Assembly (NCBI GenBank): GCA_003058495.1
Contig: QBVC01000038.1
Location: 1-50,796 of the forward strand
DNA: 50,796 nucleotides
Source of the DNA: a gamma proteobacterium symbiont of Ctena orbiculata
GTDB lineage: Bacteria > Pseudomonadota > Gammaproteobacteria > Chromatiales > Chromatiaceae
Reading direction: 5' to 3'
The position numbers and the translations under genes were made by a program. This document shows, one piece after another, positions 22,202-50,796 of this stretch. The notes beneath the pieces are model-generated. The model had not been told where the DNA came from. It saw nothing but the letters and a program-made list of their open reading frames with translations, and made no database searches. Each line of letters opens with the position of its first letter. Position 1 is the first letter of the stretch.

Positions 22202-23656
22202 ATGAGTGAAGAGATACTGATCAATGTCACCCCCCCCGAGACCCGGGTTGCGGTGATCGAGAATGGCGCGGTGCAGGAAGTGATCATCGAGCGCTACGGT
22301 AAGCGTGGCCTGGTGGGCAATGTCTACAAGGGCAAGGTGTGCCGGGTGCTGCCCGGCATGCAGGCGGCCTTTGTCGACATCGGGCTGGAGCGGGCGGCAT
22401 TCCTGCATGTATCCGATATCGGGGAGACCACAGACAAGCCCAAGACGGACAATATCCATGAACTGCTGAGTGATGGCGACTATGTGATCGTGCAGGTGCT
22501 GAAGGATCCCATCGGCACCAAGGGCGCCCGTCTCACCACCAATATCTCCATCCCGTCGCGACACCTGGTGTTCATGCCTTCGCTGGGCAACATGGGCATT
22601 TCCCAGCGCATCGAGGCCGAGGATGAGCGCCAGCGCCTGCGCGAGCTGCTGAACCAGGTGGCGGAGGCGGGCGAGATATCGGGAGGCTATATCGCCCGCA
22701 CCGCGGCGGAGGGGGTGGACGAGGTCTCGCTGAAGGCGGATATGCGTTTCCTCGCCCGCCTCTGGTCCTCGATTCAGGAGAAGAGCAAGCTGAGCAACAA
22801 AATCGAGCTGATCCACGAGGACCTCTCCCTGCCCCTGCGCTCGCTGCGGGACCTGGTCGGCCCCGATGTGGAAAAGGTGCGCATCGATTCCAAGGAGACC
22901 CACCAGAAGGCGATCAACTTCGCGCAACAGTTCATTCCCGATATCAAGCACTGTATCGAATACTACCCCGGGCAGCGCCCCCTGTTTGATCTCTACGGCG
23001 TCGAGGACGAGATCCAGAAGGCCCTGGAGCGCAAGGTACAGCTCAAGTCCGGCGGTCATCTGGTGATCGATCAGACCGAGGCGATGACCACCATCGACGT
23101 CAATACTGGGGCCTTCGTCGGCCACAGAAACCTGGAGGAGACCATATTCAAGACAAACCTGGAGGCGGCTCAGGCCATCTGCCGGCAGCTGCGTCTGCGC
23201 AACCTGGGGGGAATCATCATCATCGATTTTATCGACATGCTCGATCCCGAACATCGGCGCCAGGTGTTGCGCGCGCTGGAGAAGTGCCTGGCGCACGATC
23301 ATGCCAGGACCCATATCACCGAGGTCTCCTCCCTGGGGCTGGTGGAGATGACCCGCAAGCGGATCCGTGAATCCCTGGAGCATGTCCTCTGCGAGCCCTG
23401 TCCCTGCTGCGGCGGCAGGGGATCGATGAAGACTGCGGAGACTACCTGTTACGAGATCTTTCGGGAGATCCTGCGGGAGTCGCGGCAGTTCGACGTCGAG
23501 TCGCTGCTGGTACTCGCCTCCCAGGAGGTGATTGACCGGCTCCTGGATGAGGAGGCGACCCACCTCGCCGAGCTCGAGCAGTTTATCGGCCATCCCATCA
23601 AGCTGCAGGTGGAAATGCTCTACACCCAGGAGCACTATGACGTCGTGCTGGTGTGA
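22202..23656 (+). CDS. rng: Ribonuclease G
   Basis: 484 residues from the ATG at 22202; an in-frame ATG at 22175 would add nine residues and overlap maf. The start MSEEILINVTPPETRVAVIENG equals the RNase G N terminus. An S1 domain covers roughly residues 35-130, followed by the 5'-sensor and RNase H-like parts. Catalytic Asp residues are visible in TTIDVNTGAFVGHRNL and IIIIDFIDM. The zinc-link Cys pair is in CEPCPCCGGRG. RNase G matures 16S rRNA and degrades mRNAs from 5'-monophosphate ends. Length fits RNase G; the RNase E C-terminal scaffold is absent. Confidence 0.97.
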   Translation: MSEEILINVTPPETRVAVIENGAVQEVIIERYGKRGLVGNVYKGKVCRVLPGMQAAFVDIGLERAAFLHVSDIGETTDKPKTDNIHELLSDGDYVIVQVLKDPIGTKGARLTTNISIPSRHLVFMPSLGNMGISQRIEAEDERQRLRELLNQVAEAGEISGGYIARTAAEGVDEVSLKADMRFLARLWSSIQEKSKLSNKIELIHEDLSLPLRSLRDLVGPDVEKVRIDSKETHQKAINFAQQFIPDIKHCIEYYPGQRPLFDLYGVEDEIQKALERKVQLKSGGHLVIDQTEAMTTIDVNTGAFVGHRNLEETIFKTNLEAAQAICRQLRLRNLGGIIIIDFIDMLDPEHRRQVLRALEKCLAHDHARTHITEVSSLGLVEMTRKRIRESLEHVLCEPCPCCGGRGSMKTAETTCYEIFREILRESRQFDVESLLVLASQEVIDRLLDEEATHLAELEQFIGHPIKLQVEMLYTQEHYDVVLV

Positions 23657-42427: not shown

Positions 42428-43432
42428 ATGAAAAAAGTACTCTCTCTGGCAATTGCAGCTGCACTGGTGGCTCCTGCCGCAGTCATGGCTGATGCCACCC
42501 TGTTTGGTAAAGCTCACTTCATCATCGAAAACGTTGATGACGGTGACACTGATGTTTGGGGTGTTGACAGCATCCATTCACGTGTTGGTGTGAAAGGCAG
42601 CGAAGACCTGGGTGGTGGACTCAAGGCTGTTTATCACTTCGAATTCAAAGTAAACCAGGATTCCGGTTCCGGTCTTGGCGATCGTAACCAGTTCATGGGT
42701 CTGGCCGGTGGTTTCGGTACCGCTCTGTTGGGCCGTCACGACACCCCGATGAAGATCGCTCAGGGCAAATTCGACGAGTTCGGTGATCTGCCGAACGGCG
42801 ACCTTGCCAACGTTATTCCTGGCGATGACCGTGTCGACAACGTTATCGCTTACGTTTCTCCCGCCATGGGCGGCCTGACCTTCGTCGGTGCTCTGGTTTC
42901 CGGTGAGAGGCCCGACCTGGAGCTGGACGGCCCCGCCGACCACATCTCCCTGGCCGGTCTCTACAGCAACGGCCCGATCTTCGCTTCTCTGGCCTACAAC
43001 AGCTATGACCTCGGTCAACCTGTCGACGCTGAACCTTCACTGCTGCGTCTTACCGGTATCTGGAACGGCGGCATGTGGCAGGTTGGTGTCATGTGGGCCT
43101 CCATGGATCTGGACCTCGACGGTGTGGACGATCCTGATTACCTCGGTCTGAGCGGTCACGTCAAAGTCGGTTCCGGCAAGATCAAGGCCCAGTACCTGAT
43201 GGGTGACTCTACCAACGGTGGCGTTTCCGGTCTGGTACCTGGCTTCACTCCCAACGTGAATGTTGGTTTCCCTGTTTCCGATCCTGAGAACGATGTCACT
43301 CAGTTCAGCGTCGGTTACGAGCACAGCATGAGCAAGCGCACCAAAGCTCACGTGGGCTTCACCTCTTATGAAGAGGACGAGACCGAAGTTGAGTCTGATG
43401 CCTTCTTTGCTGGTCTGATCCACAGCTTCTAA
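42428..43432 (+). CDS. Outer-membrane general porin
   Basis: 334 residues. Signal peptide MKKVLSLAIAAALVAPAAVMA is followed by the typical porin opening DATLFGKAHF. The motifs SRVGVKGSEDLGGGLKAVYHFEF and GGFGTALLGRHDTPMK are those of the trimeric 16-strand porins (Porin_4 type). The last residue is Phe, in LIHSF, the barrel-assembly signal. The eyelet loop is acidic. Codon use is strongly biased (ctg, ggt, gac), suggesting high expression. GGAG lies 8 bases before the ATG. It has its own promoter region and terminator. Confidence 0.94.
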   Translation: MKKVLSLAIAAALVAPAAVMADATLFGKAHFIIENVDDGDTDVWGVDSIHSRVGVKGSEDLGGGLKAVYHFEFKVNQDSGSGLGDRNQFMGLAGGFGTALLGRHDTPMKIAQGKFDEFGDLPNGDLANVIPGDDRVDNVIAYVSPAMGGLTFVGALVSGERPDLELDGPADHISLAGLYSNGPIFASLAYNSYDLGQPVDAEPSLLRLTGIWNGGMWQVGVMWASMDLDLDGVDDPDYLGLSGHVKVGSGKIKAQYLMGDSTNGGVSGLVPGFTPNVNVGFPVSDPENDVTQFSVGYEHSMSKRTKAHVGFTSYEEDETEVESDAFFAGLIHSF

Positions 43433-43458
43433 TAGCTCACTCGAGTTATGCAAGTTGG

Positions 43459-43484
43459 GAAACGGGGCCTTCGGGCCCCGTTTC
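43459..43484 (+). terminator. UUCG-loop terminator after the porin
   Basis: An 11-bp perfect stem gaaacggggcc / ggccccgtttc closed by ttcg, ending in a short T-rich stretch, 26 bases after the stop. Confidence 0.85.
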
Positions 43485-43843
43485 TAGTTATACCCTCCTC
43501 AGTTTTTCTTCAACTCACACATCGATAGAGTCGCGCTGTCAATCGCGCCTGGCGGCCTGGCCTTGTCTCTGAAAATCACATAGAGGCGACGGCTGAAACG
43601 GCCTTGTGGGGCATTGCGCCACAGGATCCGATTGCCCGGGCATTTGCCCGCCGCCCAAGACTGTGCGGCGCTCTCTGTGGGTAGCTCGCCTATCGATAGT
43701 CCACCAGCCGGAGCGTCCTGTGGTGCGCTGCGGTTTTTCAGTTTTTTCAAGCGGATAAGGCCTCTCCCGTTGAATTGTGCTGCCGGGAGAGTCCGCATCG
43801 GGGTGCTGTGTGCCGGATTAAATAACAGAAAATTGGAGAAAAG
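43485..43843. other. Gap between porin terminator and prpE control region
   Basis: No convincing gene. A 117-codon minus-strand frame (43499-43852, starting MSTLFSNFLLFNPAH) has no ribosome site, no recognised family and a start codon inside the first prpE operator. A plus-strand frame at 43614-43901 is also unconvincing. A decayed gene cannot be excluded. Confidence 0.4.
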
Positions 43844-43851
43844 TGTCGACA
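43844..43851. promoter_or_regulatory. GntR-type operator 1 of prpE (overlaps -35)
   Basis: Perfect palindrome TGTCGACA in the context aaagTGTCGACAtta. It contains the TCGACA -35 hexamer. Its reverse complement reads TGTCGACACTT, the same as the other strong copies. The regulator is most likely the FadR-type GntR protein encoded downstream (inference). Confidence 0.75.
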
Positions 43852-43875
43852 TTATAGAAATTATTGTCTATAAAA
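43846..43875 (+). promoter_or_regulatory. Putative prpE promoter
   Basis: -35 TCGACA (43846-43851), an 18-base spacer, -10 TATAAA (43870-43875). The start would be near 43882. The same layout is found before gntR. Confidence 0.65.
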
Positions 43876-43907
43876 TAGGTTCAATATCCGATATTCAATA
43901 ATAAATT

Positions 43908-43915
43908 GTCGACAC
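43908..43915. promoter_or_regulatory. GntR-type operator 2 of prpE
   Basis: TGTCGACA in attgTCGACACTT context, 64 bp centre to centre from operator 1, about +27 to +34 relative to the predicted start and 37 bases before the prpE ATG. Confidence 0.75.
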
Positions 43916-43952
43916 TTACCGAAGACTGACAACATCAGAGGAGTGATCCCAC

Positions 43953-45845
43953 ATGTCACGTTATGCCGAGATATATCAACAGTCGTTGAATGACCCTGAA
44001 TCCTTCTGGGGCACGGTGGCCAAGGATCTGCATTGGCACAAGCCCTGGGAGAAGGTTCTCGACGAGTCGGCCAAACCATCACCGCGCTGGTTCAGCGGTG
44101 GCATGTTCAATACCTGTTTCAACGCCCTGGATAGACACGTCGAGGCGGGTAACGGTGATCGTCCTGCCCTGATCTACGACAGTCCGGTGACCGATCAGAA
44201 ACTCAGCTACAGCTACCGTGAACTGCGTGATACGGTTTCCAGGCTGGCCGGTGCGATCGCTGCCCAGGGTGTGGGGAAGGGTGATCGGGTGATTATCTAT
44301 ATGCCGATGATTCCGGAGGCGGCCATCGCCATGCTGGCCTGCGCCCGTATCGGCGCCATCCATTCTGTTGTGTTCGGCGGATTTGCGGCAAAGGAACTGG
44401 CGACCCGTATCGATGACAGCCAGCCCAAAATGGTGCTCTCCGCCTCCTGCGGTATCGAACCCAGCCGTCTGGTGGCCTACAAACCCCTCTTGGATGAGGC
44501 GATTGAGATCGCCCGGCATAAACCGGTCAGCTGTATCATCAAGCAGCGGCCGCAGTTGGCTGCCGAGCTGCAGGATGGACGGGATCTCGACTGGGACGAT
44601 GCATTGGCCAGTGCCGAGCCTGCGGATTGCATACCCGTAGCGGCGACCGATCCTCTCTATATTCTCTATACCTCAGGTACGACGGGACAACCCAAGGGTG
44701 TGGTCCGTGACAACGGCGGCCATGCCGCCGCGCTTCTCTGGTCGATGAAGAACATCTACAACGTCGAGGCGGGCGATGTCTATTGGGCTGCGTCCGACGT
44801 CGGTTGGGTGGTTGGCCACAGCTATATCGTGTATGGCCCGCTGTTGGCGGGTTGCACCACGGTCATCTATGAAGGCAAACCGGTTGGCACCCCTGATCCG
44901 GGCGCCTTCTGGCGCGTGATCAGCGAGTATGGCGTCAAGGTGTTGTTCACCGCGCCAACCGCGTTTCGCGCAATCAAGAAGGAGGACCCGCAAGGCGCCT
45001 ACCTGTCGAAATACGATATCGGTTGTATGGATACCCTCTTTCTTGCCGGTGAACGTTGTGATCCGGACACCCTCCATTGGGCGGAAACCATGCTCGACAA
45101 ACCGGTAATCGACCATTGGTGGCAGACCGAGACCGGATGGGCCATTGCCGCCAATCCCATGGGGGTAGAAGCGCTGCCGGTGAAAGCCGGGTCACCGACG
45201 GTATCGATGGTCGGCTATGACGTGCAGGTGCTCGATGACCAGGGTAATCAGAAGGCGGCAGGGGAGATGGGGGATATCGTAATCAAGCAACCGCTGCCCC
45301 CTTCCTGTCTGCCAACCCTGTGGAATAACGAACAGCGATTTGTCGATTCCTATCTGAGTGCCTATCCCGGTTACTACCTGACAGGTGATGCCGGATACAA
45401 GGATGAGGATGGGTATCTTTGGATCATGAGCCGCACCGATGACGTGATAAACGTGGCCGGACACCGCCTTTCCACCGGCCAGATGGAAGAGGTTCTGGCA
45501 GGGCATGCGGACGTGGCGGAGTGCGCGGTCATCGGTGTCGCTGATGCCCTGAAAGGCCAGCTGCCTCTGGGGCTCGTGGTTTTGAAGACAGGTGTGGAAA
45601 GATCGGTCGACGAACTTTCGGCTGAGTTGGTAAAGCGGGTGCGTGAACAGATCGGTCCGGTTGCCGCCTTCAAGCATCTCGCCGTTGTCAAGCGCCTCCC
45701 CAAGACCCGCTCAGGGAAGATATTGCGCGGAACCATGGTCAAGATCGCCGATGGAGAGGAGTGGAAGATGCCGGCCACCATCGACGATCCTGCGATCCTG
45801 GATGAGATCTCATCCTCCCTGCAGACGATTGGCTATGCCAAATAG
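43953..45845 (+). CDS. prpE: Propionyl-CoA synthetase
   Basis: 630 residues. An AMP-forming acyl-CoA synthetase close to Acs but with PrpE hallmarks: the RYAEIYQQSLNDPESFW opening, RIGAIHSVVFGGFAA, the P-loop-like YTSGTTGQPKGVVRD, SDVGWVVGHSYIVYGPLL, HWWQTETGW, RTDDVINVAGHRL and the catalytic K589 in RSGKILR (the acetylation-control site in relatives). It activates propionate to propionyl-CoA, the entry to the methylcitrate cycle encoded next. GAGGAG lies 9 bases before the ATG. Two TGTCGACA operators precede it. Confidence 0.93.
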   Translation: MSRYAEIYQQSLNDPESFWGTVAKDLHWHKPWEKVLDESAKPSPRWFSGGMFNTCFNALDRHVEAGNGDRPALIYDSPVTDQKLSYSYRELRDTVSRLAGAIAAQGVGKGDRVIIYMPMIPEAAIAMLACARIGAIHSVVFGGFAAKELATRIDDSQPKMVLSASCGIEPSRLVAYKPLLDEAIEIARHKPVSCIIKQRPQLAAELQDGRDLDWDDALASAEPADCIPVAATDPLYILYTSGTTGQPKGVVRDNGGHAAALLWSMKNIYNVEAGDVYWAASDVGWVVGHSYIVYGPLLAGCTTVIYEGKPVGTPDPGAFWRVISEYGVKVLFTAPTAFRAIKKEDPQGAYLSKYDIGCMDTLFLAGERCDPDTLHWAETMLDKPVIDHWWQTETGWAIAANPMGVEALPVKAGSPTVSMVGYDVQVLDDQGNQKAAGEMGDIVIKQPLPPSCLPTLWNNEQRFVDSYLSAYPGYYLTGDAGYKDEDGYLWIMSRTDDVINVAGHRLSTGQMEEVLAGHADVAECAVIGVADALKGQLPLGLVVLKTGVERSVDELSAELVKRVREQIGPVAAFKHLAVVKRLPKTRSGKILRGTMVKIADGEEWKMPATIDDPAILDEISSSLQTIGYAK

Positions 45846-45932
45846 CGGCTGACCCAGAGGCAGGGACCCGAAGCGCTGCCCCGGCAGGGATGCATCACGG
45901 CAGGGCTGAATTAAAGGCCTAAATTCCAAATA

Positions 45933-45940
45933 TGTCGACA
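45933..45940. promoter_or_regulatory. GntR-type operator 1 of the gntR gene (overlaps -35)
   Basis: TGTCGACA in tatgTCGACACATT context; contains the TCGACA -35 hexamer at 45935-45940. Confidence 0.75.
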
Positions 45941-45963
45941 CATTATGTTTTTTAGTCTATATT
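45935..45963 (+). promoter_or_regulatory. Putative gntR promoter
   Basis: -35 TCGACA, a 17-base spacer, -10 TATATT (45958-45963); predicted start near 45970. The blocks gtctata and tatccg keep identical offsets to the prpE control region, showing the two regions share ancestry or selection. Confidence 0.65.
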
Positions 45964-45995
45964 GAGCCCATATTATCCGGCAAATGAGTAAAATG

Positions 45996-46003
45996 TGTCG
46001 ACA
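45996..46003. promoter_or_regulatory. GntR-type operator 2 of the gntR gene
   Basis: TGTCGACA in atgTGTCGACACTTTT context, 63 bp from operator 1 of this pair, about +27 to +34 from the predicted start. It lies just before the regulator's likely ATG. Confidence 0.75.
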
Positions 46004-46018
46004 CTTTTAAAAAGAGAC

Positions 46019-46705
46019 ATGCAAAACCGACAACCGACTGAAAAGAGCGATCCTGTCACCATCACCCTGACTGATCGGCTGTTCGATACCCTCCAGCGCG
46101 CCATCGTTGAAGGGGAGATACAGTCCGGCAGCAAGATCAGCGAGCCTGAACTCGCGCGCCAGCATGGTGTAAGCCGGGGTTCATTGAGGGAGGCGATCGG
46201 GCGGCTCGAGGCGAGAAAGCTGGTGGAGCGCAAACCCAACCTGGGCGCCCGTGTGGTGACGCTCTCCTACGAGCAGCTGATTGAGATCTATCAGGTGCGC
46301 GAGGCCCTGGAGGGCATGGCTGCGAGGCTGGCAGCCCAGAATATGAGTGACAGGGAGATAGCTGAACTGCAGTCGTTGTTGGATGAACATGGCAGGCAGA
46401 TCGAAGAGGTGCATGGCGAAGCCTACTTTCAGAAACAGGGCGATCTCGATTATCACTACCGTATCGTACAGGGTTCAAAGAACCGCCATTTGATCGGTCT
46501 GCTATGCAACGATCTCTATCACCTGTTGCGCATGTACCGATTCCAGTTCGGCATGCGCAGCAAACGCTCCAGGCAGGCATACGATGAGCATCACTATCTA
46601 TTGAATGCGATCGCTGCCCGCGACCCTGAAATGGCTGAATTGTTGATGCGTCAGCATATTCGTTCATCCCGTAGAAACGTGGAAAAAATGTTGTTGGAGA
46701 ACTGA
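46019..46705 (+). CDS. GntR-family (FCD domain) regulator of propionate catabolism
   Basis: 228 residues from the ATG at 46019, which has AAGAG just upstream. A GTG at 45995 is in frame but lies across operator 2, so it is less likely. The winged helix-turn-helix is at about 15-80 (DRLFDTLQRAIVEGEI...RGSLREAIGRLEARKLV). The FCD ligand domain follows (about 90-215) with Asp/His metal-ligand candidates in LDYHYRIVQGSKNRHLIG and a further His in RQHIRSSR. FadR-type relatives repress methylcitrate or related genes until an organic acid binds. Autoregulation is predicted from the flanking operators. Methylcitrate or propionyl-CoA as effector is inference. Confidence 0.9.
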   Translation: MQNRQPTEKSDPVTITLTDRLFDTLQRAIVEGEIQSGSKISEPELARQHGVSRGSLREAIGRLEARKLVERKPNLGARVVTLSYEQLIEIYQVREALEGMAARLAAQNMSDREIAELQSLLDEHGRQIEEVHGEAYFQKQGDLDYHYRIVQGSKNRHLIGLLCNDLYHLLRMYRFQFGMRSKRSRQAYDEHHYLLNAIAARDPEMAELLMRQHIRSSRRNVEKMLLEN

Positions 46706-46767: not shown

Positions 46768-47658
46768 ATGACCAACCAGCAAAATCCCGGCGCACGTTTT
46801 CGCGCCGCCATTGAACAGGAGAAGCCACTGCAGTGCGTCGGCGCCATCAATGCCTATCATGCCAGGCTGGCCGATGCGTCGGGTTTCAAATCCCTCTACA
46901 TCTCCGGTGGCGGTGTCGCTGCCGGTTCCTGCGGCATCCCCGATCTGGGGATTACAACCATGGAGGATGTGCTCACCGATCTGCGCCGGATCACGGATGT
47001 CACCGAACTGCCTGTCTTGGTCGATATCGATACCGGATGGGGCGGGGCCTTCAATATTGCACGCACCATACGCAACATGAACAAGTTTGGTGCGGCAGCG
47101 GTACATATCGAAGACCAGGTTCAGCAGAAGCGCTGCGGCCACCGCCCCAACAAGGCGATCGTCGGGGAGGATGAAATGGTGGACCGTATCAAGGCCGCGG
47201 TCGATGCCAAACTGGATGACGACTTCGTGGTAATGGCACGTACCGATGCCCTTGCGGTGGAGGGTATGCAGTCCGCCATCGACAGGGCATGCGCCTGTGT
47301 TGAGGCCGGCGCCGATATGATCTTTCCGGAGGCGATGACGGAGCTCGACCAATACCGGGAGTTCGTCGCCGCGGTGAAGGTTCCGGTACTCGCCAACATC
47401 ACCGAGTTCGGTTCGACCCCGCTCTACACGACCGGGCAGCTGGCGTCGGCGGGGGTGAGCATCGCCCTCTATCCCCTCAGCGCTTTCCGCGCCGCCAACG
47501 CTGCAGCCCTGAATGTCTACCAGGCCCTGCGTCGCGACGGTACCCAGCAGGGCGTCGTAGATACCATGCAGAGCCGGTCCGATCTTTACGACTACCTTGG
47601 TTACCACGATTTCGAACAAAAGCTGGACCAGTTGTTTGTCTCAGAGGAGACGGCGTAG
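46768..47658 (+). CDS. prpB: 2-methylisocitrate lyase
   Basis: 296 residues. Splits 2-methylisocitrate into pyruvate and succinate, the last step of the methylcitrate cycle. The active-site signature KRCGHRP with catalytic C123 is intact. Mg-binding and family blocks [27 protein letters not shown] and HIEDQV are present, matching PrpB rather than isocitrate lyase. GAGG lies about 8 bases before the ATG. Downstream is a 316-base gap with a repeat element before prpC. Confidence 0.97.
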
Positions 47659-47974: not shown

Positions 47975-49129
47975 ATGAGCGAACCCACCCAAATACTGCC
48001 CAAGGCGAAGAAGTCGGTCGCCCTCTCCGGCACCGCCGCCGGAAACACCGCCATCTGTACCGTCGGCCGCACCGGCAATGACCTGCACTACCGCGGTTAC
48101 GACATTCTCGATTTCTCCGAGACCGCCGAGTTCGAGGAGATTGCCTATCTGCTGATCCACGGCAGCCTGCCAACCAAGGCTGAGCTCGCCGCCTACAAGG
48201 CCAGGTTGAAGTCGTTGCGCGGCCTGCCCCTGGCAGTGAAGCAGGCGCTGGAGGCGATCCCGGCATCCGCCCACCCGATGGACGTGATGCGTACCGCCTG
48301 CTCGGTGATGGGCAGCTGTGTGCCGGAAAAGGAGAGCCATCCCGCCTCCGAGGCCCGTGACATCATCGACCGGTTGATGGCCAGTTTCGGCTCCGCCCTG
48401 CTCTACTGGTACCACTACGCCTTCAACGGCAAGCGCATCGACGTGGAGACCGACGATGACTCCATCGGCGGCCACTTCCTCCACCTGCTCCACGGAGAGA
48501 AACCGAAAGAATCCTGGGTGCGCGCCATGCATACCTCCCTGGTACTCTACGCCGAGCATGAGTTCAATGCCTCCACCTTCACCGCCCGTGTGGTGGCCGG
48601 GACCAACTCCGACATGTACTCCGCCATCACCGCCGCCATCGGCGCCCTGCGCGGACCCAAGCATGGCGGCGCCAACGAAGAGGCCTTCCGCATCCAGAGC
48701 CGTTACCACACCGCCGACGAGGCGGATGCCGACATCCGCGAGCGGGTTGGACGCAAGGAGATCGTGATCGGTTTCGGCCACCCGGTCTATACCGTGGGCG
48801 ATCCCCGCAACGAGGTGATCAAGCGGGTCGCCAAGGAGCTCTCCGAAGAGGCCGGCAACATGACCATGTTCAACGTCGCCGACCGCCTGGAATCGGTGAT
48901 GTGGGAGATCAAGAAGATGTTCCCCAACCTGGACTGGTTCTCCGCCGTCTCCTACAACCAGATGGGCGTGCCCACCGACATGTTCACCCCGTTGTTCGTT
49001 ATATCCCGTGTCTCTGGTTGGGGCGCCCATGTGATTGAGCAACGGGAAGACGGGAAAATTATACGGCCGTCTGCGAACTATACAGGACCGGAGAATCGTG
49101 ACTATGTGCCGATTGACGAAAGAGGCTGA
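47975..49129 (+). CDS. prpC: 2-methylcitrate synthase
   Basis: 384 residues. Condenses propionyl-CoA with oxaloacetate. Citrate-synthase catalytic residues are visible: H230 in [10 protein letters not shown]269 in [14 protein letters not shown] and D320 in NLDWFSAV. The short length and [10 protein letters not shown] opening fit the PrpC/type II class. AGGAGG lies 7 bases before the ATG. The C-terminal APPROX. 25 residues ([21 protein letters not shown] end) are standard for the family. Confidence 0.95.
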
Positions 49130-49457: not shown

Positions 49458-50796
49458 ATGAACACCCAATTCAGAAAACGACTCCCAGATAGTGACCTGG
49501 ACTACTTCGACACCCGTGAGGCGGTAGAAGCAATCCAACCCGGCGCCTACACTAAACTCCCCTACACATCCCGGGTGCTGGCGGAGCAGCTGGTACGCCG
49601 TTGCGAACCCGGCCTGTTGACCGATGCCCTGAAACAGCTCATCGAGCGCAAGCGGGATCTCGACTTTCCCTGGTACCCTGCGCGGGTGGTCTGCCACGAC
49701 ATCCTGGGCCAGACAGCCCTGGTGGACCTGGCCGGGCTGCGTGACGCCATCGCCGACAGGGGGGGTGATCCGGCGAAGGTGAATCCGGTGGTGCCGACCC
49801 AGCTCATCGTCGATCACTCCCTGGCGGTGGAGCACGCCGGTTTCGAGGATGACGCCTTTGATAAGAACCGGGCCATCGAAGACCGCCGCAATGCCGACCG
49901 CTTCCATTTCATCGAATGGACCAAGACCGCCTTCGACAACGTGGATGTGATCCCCGCCGGTAACGGCATCATGCACCAGATCAACCTGGAGAAGATGTCG
50001 CCGGTGATCCAGTCCAGGAACGGCGTTGCCTTTCCCGACACCTGCGTCGGTACCGACAGCCACACCCCCCACATCGACGCCCTGGGTGTGATCGCCATCG
50101 GCGTCGGCGGCCTGGAGGCGGAGACCGTGATGCTCGGCCGCCCCACCATGATGCGGCTGCCGGAGATCGTCGGTGTAAGGCTCACCGGTAGGCGCAGACC
50201 CGGCATCACCGCCACCGACATCGTGCTGGCCCTGACCGAGTTCCTGCGCCGACAGCGGGTGGTTTCCGCCTATCTCGAGTTCTTCGGCGAGGGTGCCGAG
50301 AGCCTGACCCTCGGCGATCGGGCGACCATTGCCAACATGACCCCGGAGTTCGGCGCCTCCGCCGGGCTCTTCTATATCGACCGTCAGACAATCGACTATC
50401 TAAAGCTCACCGGCCGCACGCCGGAGCAGGTCGAGCTGGTGGAGAACTACGCCAAGACCACAGGCCTCTGGGCAGATGATCTGAAGAGTGCCGAGTATGA
50501 GCGGGTACTGGAGTTCGATCTCTCCCGGGTGGACCGCACCATGGCGGGTCCCTCCAATCCCCACCGCCGCCTGCCCACCTCGGCCCTGGCCGAGCACGGC
50601 ATCGCAGGCGCCTGGGAGGAGAGGCCGGGCGAGATGCCAGACGGCGCGGTGATCATCGCCGCCATCACCAGCTGCACCAACACCTCCAACCCGCGCAATC
50701 TGGTGGCCGCCGGGCTGCTGGCGCGTAAGGCCAACCAACTGGGGCTGGTGCGCAGGCCCTGGGTCAAGTCCTCCTTCGCCCCCGGCTCCAAGGTGG
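49458..50796 (+). CDS. acnD: Fe/S-dependent 2-methylcitrate dehydratase, 3'-truncated
   Basis: 446 codons are visible and the frame is open at the window end; the full family protein is about 860 residues. The aconitase fold is evident: PARVVCHDILGQTALVDLAG, VDHSLAVEH, PAGNGIMHQINLE, DTCVGTDSHTPHIDALG and the first 4Fe-4S Cys, C406, in ITSCTNTSNPRN. The order prpB-prpC-acnD and the start MNTQFRKRLPDSDLDYFDTREA indicate AcnD rather than AcnA. AcnD with PrpF dehydrates 2-methylcitrate in place of PrpD; prpF is expected just beyond the window. A GAGA stretch precedes the ATG at a reasonable distance. Confidence 0.95.
   Translation, partial: MNTQFRKRLPDSDLDYFDTREAVEAIQPGAYTKLPYTSRVLAEQLVRRCEPGLLTDALKQLIERKRDLDFPWYPARVVCHDILGQTALVDLAGLRDAIADRGGDPAKVNPVVPTQLIVDHSLAVEHAGFEDDAFDKNRAIEDRRNADRFHFIEWTKTAFDNVDVIPAGNGIMHQINLEKMSPVIQSRNGVAFPDTCVGTDSHTPHIDALGVIAIGVGGLEAETVMLGRPTMMRLPEIVGVRLTGRRRPGITATDIVLALTEFLRRQRVVSAYLEFFGEGAESLTLGDRATIANMTPEFGASAGLFYIDRQTIDYLKLTGRTPEQVELVENYAKTTGLWADDLKSAEYERVLEFDLSRVDRTMAGPSNPHRRLPTSALAEHGIAGAWEERPGEMPDGAVIIAAITSCTNTSNPRNLVAAGLLARKANQLGLVRRPWVKSSFAPGSKV

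Follow-up and report, generated by a model that had tools for sequence, protein, structure and literature searches.

Background

The regulator studied here is a GntR/FCD protein, as LldR presumably is too, and for its Pseudomonas aeruginosa relative it has been proposed or reported that a methylcitrate-cycle intermediate relieves the repression (PMC9765439, and the title of Cui 2022). This relative is PA0797, or PmiR (PMC13086498), which has been named PrpR and described as a repressor of the prp genes that binds DNA upstream of prpR, on a fragment of 250 bp, and its predicted motif ATTGTCGACAAT is credited to Suvorova 2012 (PMC9765439). A PrpR of the GntR type has also been predicted in Shewanella (Rodionov 2011, PMC3223726), and the sites of the FadR-subfamily PrpR are given as containing GT-N2-AC (PMC4494728). 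Moreover, double sites at a nearly constant distance are described in divergons of the FadR and HutC subfamilies and called cooperative; in the part of that paper at hand, helical spacing steps go unmentioned and the word 'periodic' is absent (PMC4494728).

As for looping, GntR/FCD regulators are stated to have been described as dimers until Atu1419, a tetrameric FCD protein which was seen by electron microscopy to loop DNA (PMC7797058), and NanR is reported to occupy adjacent repeats with three cooperating dimers (PMC8012715). LldR is described as having no looping synergy in a reporter library, its proximal site being ineffective there too, while for most repressors tested the distal sites acted cyclically without a proximal site, and 55 bp is reportedly amenable to looping (PMC7804116). 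In the literature as covered by titles and the openings of abstracts, Suvorova 2012 aside, whole-turn spacing was not found for this regulator. Among the matches listed for the palindrome TGTCGACA, all looked unrelated at the same level, and among the papers containing ATTGTCGACAAT it is PMC9765439 that deals with this regulator.

Results

The prp locus and its regulator

The window is the whole stretch of DNA that was analysed, 50,796 nucleotides of contig QBVC01000038.1 from a gammaproteobacterial symbiont of Ctena orbiculata, and it holds five genes in a row:

43953..45845, + strand: prpE-like acyl-CoA ligase gene, best match to propionate--CoA ligase models
46019..46705, + strand: gntR, gene of a GntR/FCD repressor of the PrpR/PmiR type (Pfam GntR and FCD; 7xp0 match)
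46768..47658, + strand: prpB, methylisocitrate lyase, over the curated cut-off
47975..49129, + strand: prpC, 2-methylcitrate synthase, over the curated cut-off
49458..50796, + strand: start of acnD, truncated by the window end (TIGR02333, E 8.1e-267)

The prpE-like product scores under the propionate--CoA ligase cut-offs (759.6 against 955, and 719.6 against 827.4) and just reaches the one set for a subfamily of acetate--CoA ligases (657 of 657), and the part of acnD in the window reaches 887.5 bits, the cut-off of 1419.85 being set for the whole protein. For gntR the start is either a GTG at 45995, which overlaps operator 2 as defined below, or the ATG at 46019. The GntR protein shares 95% identity with its counterpart in a genome of a Ctena orbiculata symbiont and 92% with the one in Candidatus Thiodiazotropha endolucinida, and the window is therefore placed in Candidatus Thiodiazotropha. 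Here gntR stands together with prpB and prpC, and 156 of the 169 loci compared below pass a prpB/prpC neighbourhood test.

In the GntR protein both PF00392 (GntR) and PF07729 (FCD) are over their Pfam cut-offs. By sequence, its best solved relative is 7xp0/7xp1, deposited as a probable transcriptional regulator and, as we assume, the PmiR of P. aeruginosa, and the match to 7xp0 (E 7.5e-73) covers residues 16-225. The entry 6z74, which we take to be Atu1419, resembles it weakly in sequence (E 7.5e-14).

Paired palindromes at the prpE and gntR promoters

Around the two predicted promoters, copies of TGTCGACA form two pairs:

43844..43851, no strand: predicted prpE operator 1, TGTCGACA, covering the -35
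43846..43851, + strand: predicted prpE -35, TCGACA, within operator 1, followed by a 17-bp spacer; absent from the consensus-scan list
43869..43874, + strand: predicted prpE -10, TATAAA; CTAT at the same offset is conserved in the genus
43907..43914, no strand: predicted prpE operator 2, TGTCGACA, 63 bp from operator 1, at about +26 to +33
45933..45940, no strand: predicted gntR operator 1, TGTCGACA, covering the -35
45935..45940, + strand: predicted gntR -35, TCGACA, within operator 1; in the consensus scan
45958..45963, + strand: predicted gntR -10, TATATT; in the consensus scan
45996..46003, no strand: predicted gntR operator 2, TGTCGACA, 63 bp from operator 1, shortly 5' of the ATG

Each promoter is flanked by two predicted operators, as is expected of a looping repressor that acts in the manner of LacI, with operator 1 lying over the -35. 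The preliminary description had claimed four palindromes in two pairs, and all four are located where it put them; of the distances it gave, 64 and 63 bp, the latter is borne out and the former is off by one, both pairs measuring 63 bp from start to start. Its -35 TCGACA inside the upstream copies, with a -10 at 17-18 bp, was found as well, the spacer being 17 bp at both promoters, and its downstream copy at about +27 to +34 comes out at roughly +26 to +33 when the transcription start is assumed to lie about 7 bp after the -10, the downstream operators starting 33 bp past the -10 end at both promoters. It had also given GTCTATA and TATCCG identical offsets, and in fact the two words recur in both window pairs at offsets 22 and 41. 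The former is partly conserved in relatives, where CTAT is present at offset 24 in 30 of the 31 segments (the window and L035-L050, of which L036-L050 belong to the window's own genus and served for the comparison of these two words) and overlaps into the -10. The latter finds no support in relatives: TATCCG occurs in 2 of the 37 listed segments, both from the window, and is therefore rejected as a shared element and taken as a coincidence. A promoter scan of 43430-46300 returned four promoter-like sites against a mean of 1.7 (sd 1.5) in shuffled sequence, and because it lists the gntR promoter and misses that of prpE, conservation carries more weight for the two promoters than the scan does.

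Altogether the window contains six copies of TGTCGACA against 0.69 expected, a number reached in none of 100 shuffles, so chance is rejected as the source of the palindromes; the remaining two copies, at 22372 and 42832, are unpaired. The four paired copies all carry the TGTCGACA core of the motif ATTGTCGACAAT, and the full 12-mer is present in none of the four. The 8-mer alone is not rare in the window's own genome, with 116 copies against 60 for the reversed control, which means that most copies are unrelated to prp, and pairs with a gap of 50-75 bp number two against none for the control. It is the pairing, not the 8-mer itself, that is the distinctive feature.

Spacing of the site pairs across loci

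The spacing was followed through 169 loci (L035, L051-L068, L101-L246 and L254-L257), some of which lie in draft genomes and which represent a sample of groups, by scanning 199 target regions, 169 of them 5' of gntR and 30 5' of prpE, with a 14-mer weight matrix derived from sites of the very loci scanned. L101-L246 are 146 of the listed matches, namely 40 of 80 in the window's order, 62 of 75 in the order of genome G508, 11 of 17 in the order of genome G237 and 33 of 45 class-sample rows, the other 12 of these rows being 8 already in the order lists, 2 from the window's genome or genus and 2 weaker second matches; L254-L257 are four further members of the 80 in the window's order. Left out were L001-L034, L036-L050 (the window's genus), L069-L070 (weak matches, to the DNA-binding part only), L071-L100 (the same genomes as longer stretches, or the window's genus) and L247-L253 (the malate:quinone oxidoreductase loci described below).

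As a result, a site pair was detected in 148 of the 199 regions (133 at gntR, 15 at prpE) and in 146 of the 169 loci, and pairs turned up in 3 of 3380 base-shuffled gntR regions (169 x 20), by which a chance origin of the pairs is rejected. The 148 primary spacings fall at 51-53 bp (15), 61-65 bp (93), 71-75 bp (30) and 116-117 bp (5), corresponding to 5 to 11 helical turns, with 84, 96, 105, 19 and 145 bp once each, and none of the 148 lies at 54-60, 66-70 or 76-83 bp. The operators are thus a whole number of turns apart, as in a looping repressor, with the exception of 19 and 145 bp (L154 and L185), which fit whole turns poorly; in L185 there are also site distances of 62 and 63 bp. A linear fit to the 5- to 11-turn values from 144 loci has a slope of 10.65 bp per turn, and all exact-palindrome pairs, three-site loci included, show the same peaks together with single values of 46, 80, 88, 109, 134 and 135 bp. 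At the threshold used, 23 of the 169 loci have no pair, some of them having a single site, so the pair is not indispensable. The Ectothiorhodospira loci L052, L053, L055 and L056 have gntR and prp genes and no pair at this threshold.

At a period of 10.5 bp the phase concentration R is 0.89 for the 148 pairs, and the 55 of them with spacings other than 61-65 bp have R 0.84. When the primary pairs are thinned so that each protein cluster at 65% identity contributes one value, R is 0.83 for 49 values and 0.79 for the 27 outside 61-65 bp, and thinning to 60% gives 0.79 for 30 values and 0.75 for 17, with a best period of 10.6-10.7 bp. The signal from all exact-palindrome pairs is weaker: at 65% it amounts to R 0.54 at 10.5 bp (27 values, p about 4e-4, where the Rayleigh p values assume independent rows, which related rows are not), at 60% to R 0.49 (24 values), and in both cases 9.0 bp scores higher, with R 0.62, being at 65% the best period scanned. 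The cause, in our view, is that loci with three sites contribute additional distances that survive the thinning, and the result still counts against a clean picture.

Operator partner and RNA polymerase

Whole turns between two operators could also be a by-product, if each operator were phased separately to RNA polymerase and the dimers never touched each other, an explanation that we regard as unlikely. For every pair the best sigma-70 promoter was scored with simple self-made weights. The predicted -10 and operator 1 are mostly 25 bp apart in Thiodiazotropha and its relatives, 37 bp in many loci of the order, 47-48 bp in a ten-member 5-turn clade where operator 2 comes right behind the -10, and mostly 46-52 bp in the 7-turn class. 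In the five loci of the 11-turn class it is 93-95 bp from the upstream site, which is judged too distant for a direct block of the polymerase and speaks against polymerase phasing.

The distances from site to promoter are indeed partly periodic, with R 0.60 and 0.60 for the 148 pairs and 0.77 and 0.81 for the 35 pairs with a promoter score of at least 18, and distal sites alone are reported to act cyclically (PMC7804116), both of which agree with such phasing. However, the distance from site to site is tighter in each comparison, with R 0.89 for the same 148 pairs and 0.91 for the 35, with 0.85 against 0.42 and 0.45 for 71 distinct layouts, and with 0.86 against 0.58 and 0.59 for the 16 layouts at a score of at least 18. 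Moreover, the predicted -10 slides while the sum of the two distances stays nearly fixed (main promoter register, score of at least 17; r -0.77 with n 32 in the 6-turn class and -0.86 with n 10 in the 7-turn class), though errors in the prediction of the -10 would mimic this. Such errors weaken the phase test and the sliding test alike. We read it as operator-operator geometry first and polymerase geometry second, where the latter may contribute to the spacing since the sites are partly phased to the promoter.

Independence of the spacing changes

If instead the two operators acted independently and additively, one as a block of the -35 and the other as a roadblock, their spacing would be inherited and without function. 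The 23 loci without a pair fit this explanation, as does the dominance of one spacing class within clades by descent. On the tree of the 169 proteins, however, at least 24 switches of turn class are needed, nearly always from one whole-turn value to another and 19 times among 5, 6, 7 and 11 turns, a count which is approximate since the protein tree is quick and has long branches; the branches marked by a star alone force nine changes for the 7-turn class. Together with the stretches between the turns in which primary pairs are absent, these changes make two independent operators very improbable. By the spacing classes and the changes on the tree, a single 63-bp spacing inherited by all is rejected. 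With one median per single-class group, a procedure that sets an upper bound on how many groups are independent, R at 10.5 bp is 0.90 for 45 groups and 0.88 for the 28 outside 6 turns. Considering the sequences compared, whole-turn spacing speaks for same-face cooperation, probably with a small repression loop, rather than for sites that act independently.

Association of the site pairs with gntR

In the window's order, TGTCGACA pairs with a gap of 50-75 bp are present in 70 of 147 genomes, against 2 of 147 for the reversed control (G006 and G060), and gntR is present in 80 at a threshold of 1e-55. Pair and gntR occur together in 69 genomes, the pair alone in 1, gntR alone in 11 and neither in 66; that is, 69 of the 70 pair-bearing genomes have gntR, and 1 of the 67 genomes lacking gntR has a pair. 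Likewise gntR or prpE stands beside the pair in 29 of the 30 pair loci L005-L034, the exception being L019 (genome G026), a lone pair near which no prp genes were found. That the palindromes belong to some regulator other than the encoded GntR protein is hardly credible, for although the 116 copies of TGTCGACA in the genome would suit it, the association just given runs against it, and in P. aeruginosa the DNA upstream of prpR is reported to be bound where the motif is predicted (PMC9765439).

A third TGTCGACA pair, again 63 bp apart, is found in L247-L253 from seven Thiodiazotropha genomes, and three pairs occur in 8 genomes of the genus, of which G067 is outside these fetched loci. In both loci scanned (L248 and L252) the gene 3' of the third pair encodes malate:quinone oxidoreductase, which may serve as a source of oxaloacetate for methylcitrate synthase. 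In the window's own genome a search for malate:quinone oxidoreductase had no match at 1e-60, an empty result that is weak by itself.

Discussion

Directly observed are the sites and the promoter match, the link to gntR and the whole-turn spacings. On this basis we propose that each promoter has two operators, one over the -35 and one just 3' of the transcription start, where two repressor dimers (or the halves of a tetramer) would bind on one helical face and hold on to one another, so that the promoter between them would be bent into a small loop and RNA polymerase shut out. A methylcitrate-cycle intermediate, 2-methylcitrate or 2-methylisocitrate, would release the repressor, and its release would open prpE and gntR-prpB-prpC-acnD at the same time, the repressor thus controlling its own gene as well. 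The same-face contact, the loop, the limits of the operons and the inducer in this organism are what we infer, and repression and binding upstream of prpR are carried over from the P. aeruginosa relative, in which they are described (PMC9765439). As a full explanation, cooperative same-face binding with a loop and release by a cycle intermediate seems to us quite probable. A loop of 52-63 bp would be tight.

Other claims of the preliminary description can be judged from the genome comparison. That the encoded FadR-type GntR protein binds the palindromes and represses both promoters gains support from the co-occurrence of pair and gene in 69 of 70 genomes and from the work on P. aeruginosa (PMC9765439). 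The pairs it expected with gntR in related genomes are there in 146 of 169 loci, the pairless pattern that would speak against it being confined to a minority of 23. Its looping between dimers on the same face is supported, as a probable mechanism, by the whole-turn spacings across genomes.

On a wider scale, we lean slightly towards the view that repressors of the PrpR/PmiR type form a very small loop of about 52-117 bp across the Gammaproteobacteria, the length of which would have changed repeatedly in evolution, and then only by whole turns, with the promoter free to move inside, as in a natural insertion experiment in more than 100 genomes. If this is true, looping by a GntR/FCD regulator is directly testable with the natural variants of 5, 6, 7 and 11 turns, and single-site models of prp control may overlook a second operator. 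The GntR/FCD regulators are a large group. Moreover, spacing statistics across genomes can hint at cooperation ahead of experiment.

Among the known systems, AraR of Bacillus subtilis is a looping repressor of the GntR superfamily, for which the title of Mota 2001 reportedly names cooperativity and looping. The ligand domain and the pathway of AraR differ from those of PrpR. The PrpR regulon predicted in Shewanella and other Proteobacteria is alike in having a GntR regulator of propionate use, itself a prediction of comparative genomics (PMC3223726), and paired whole-turn sites go unmentioned in the parts of PMC3223726 and PMC4494728 at hand, Suvorova 2012 aside. Atu1419 of Agrobacterium fabrum shares with our system the FCD protein, the short palindromes and the loop between two of them, whereas it is a tetrameric GntR protein of the VanR group with sites 190 and 109 bp apart and another pathway and effector, and its description, in the part at hand, has no series of spacings across genomes as is given here (PMC7797058).

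The nearest system is PrpR/PmiR (PA0797) of P. aeruginosa, which is alike in protein family, gene neighbourhood, the motif ATTGTCGACAAT and its role as a prp repressor, but for which the part of the paper at hand names one palindrome, 84 bp upstream, in contrast to two per promoter in the window (PMC9765439). The window also differs in having prpE inside the cluster. In the five loci L147, L151, L159, L160 and L162, which form one family (f160) and are taken for Pseudomonas, L147 alone having been compared with 7xp0, a second site is seen 73-75 bp downstream, beside the start codon. In view of the family match and the published work on PA0797, the regulator, the motif and the pathway are already known; the comparison of operator spacing across genomes is the new element here.
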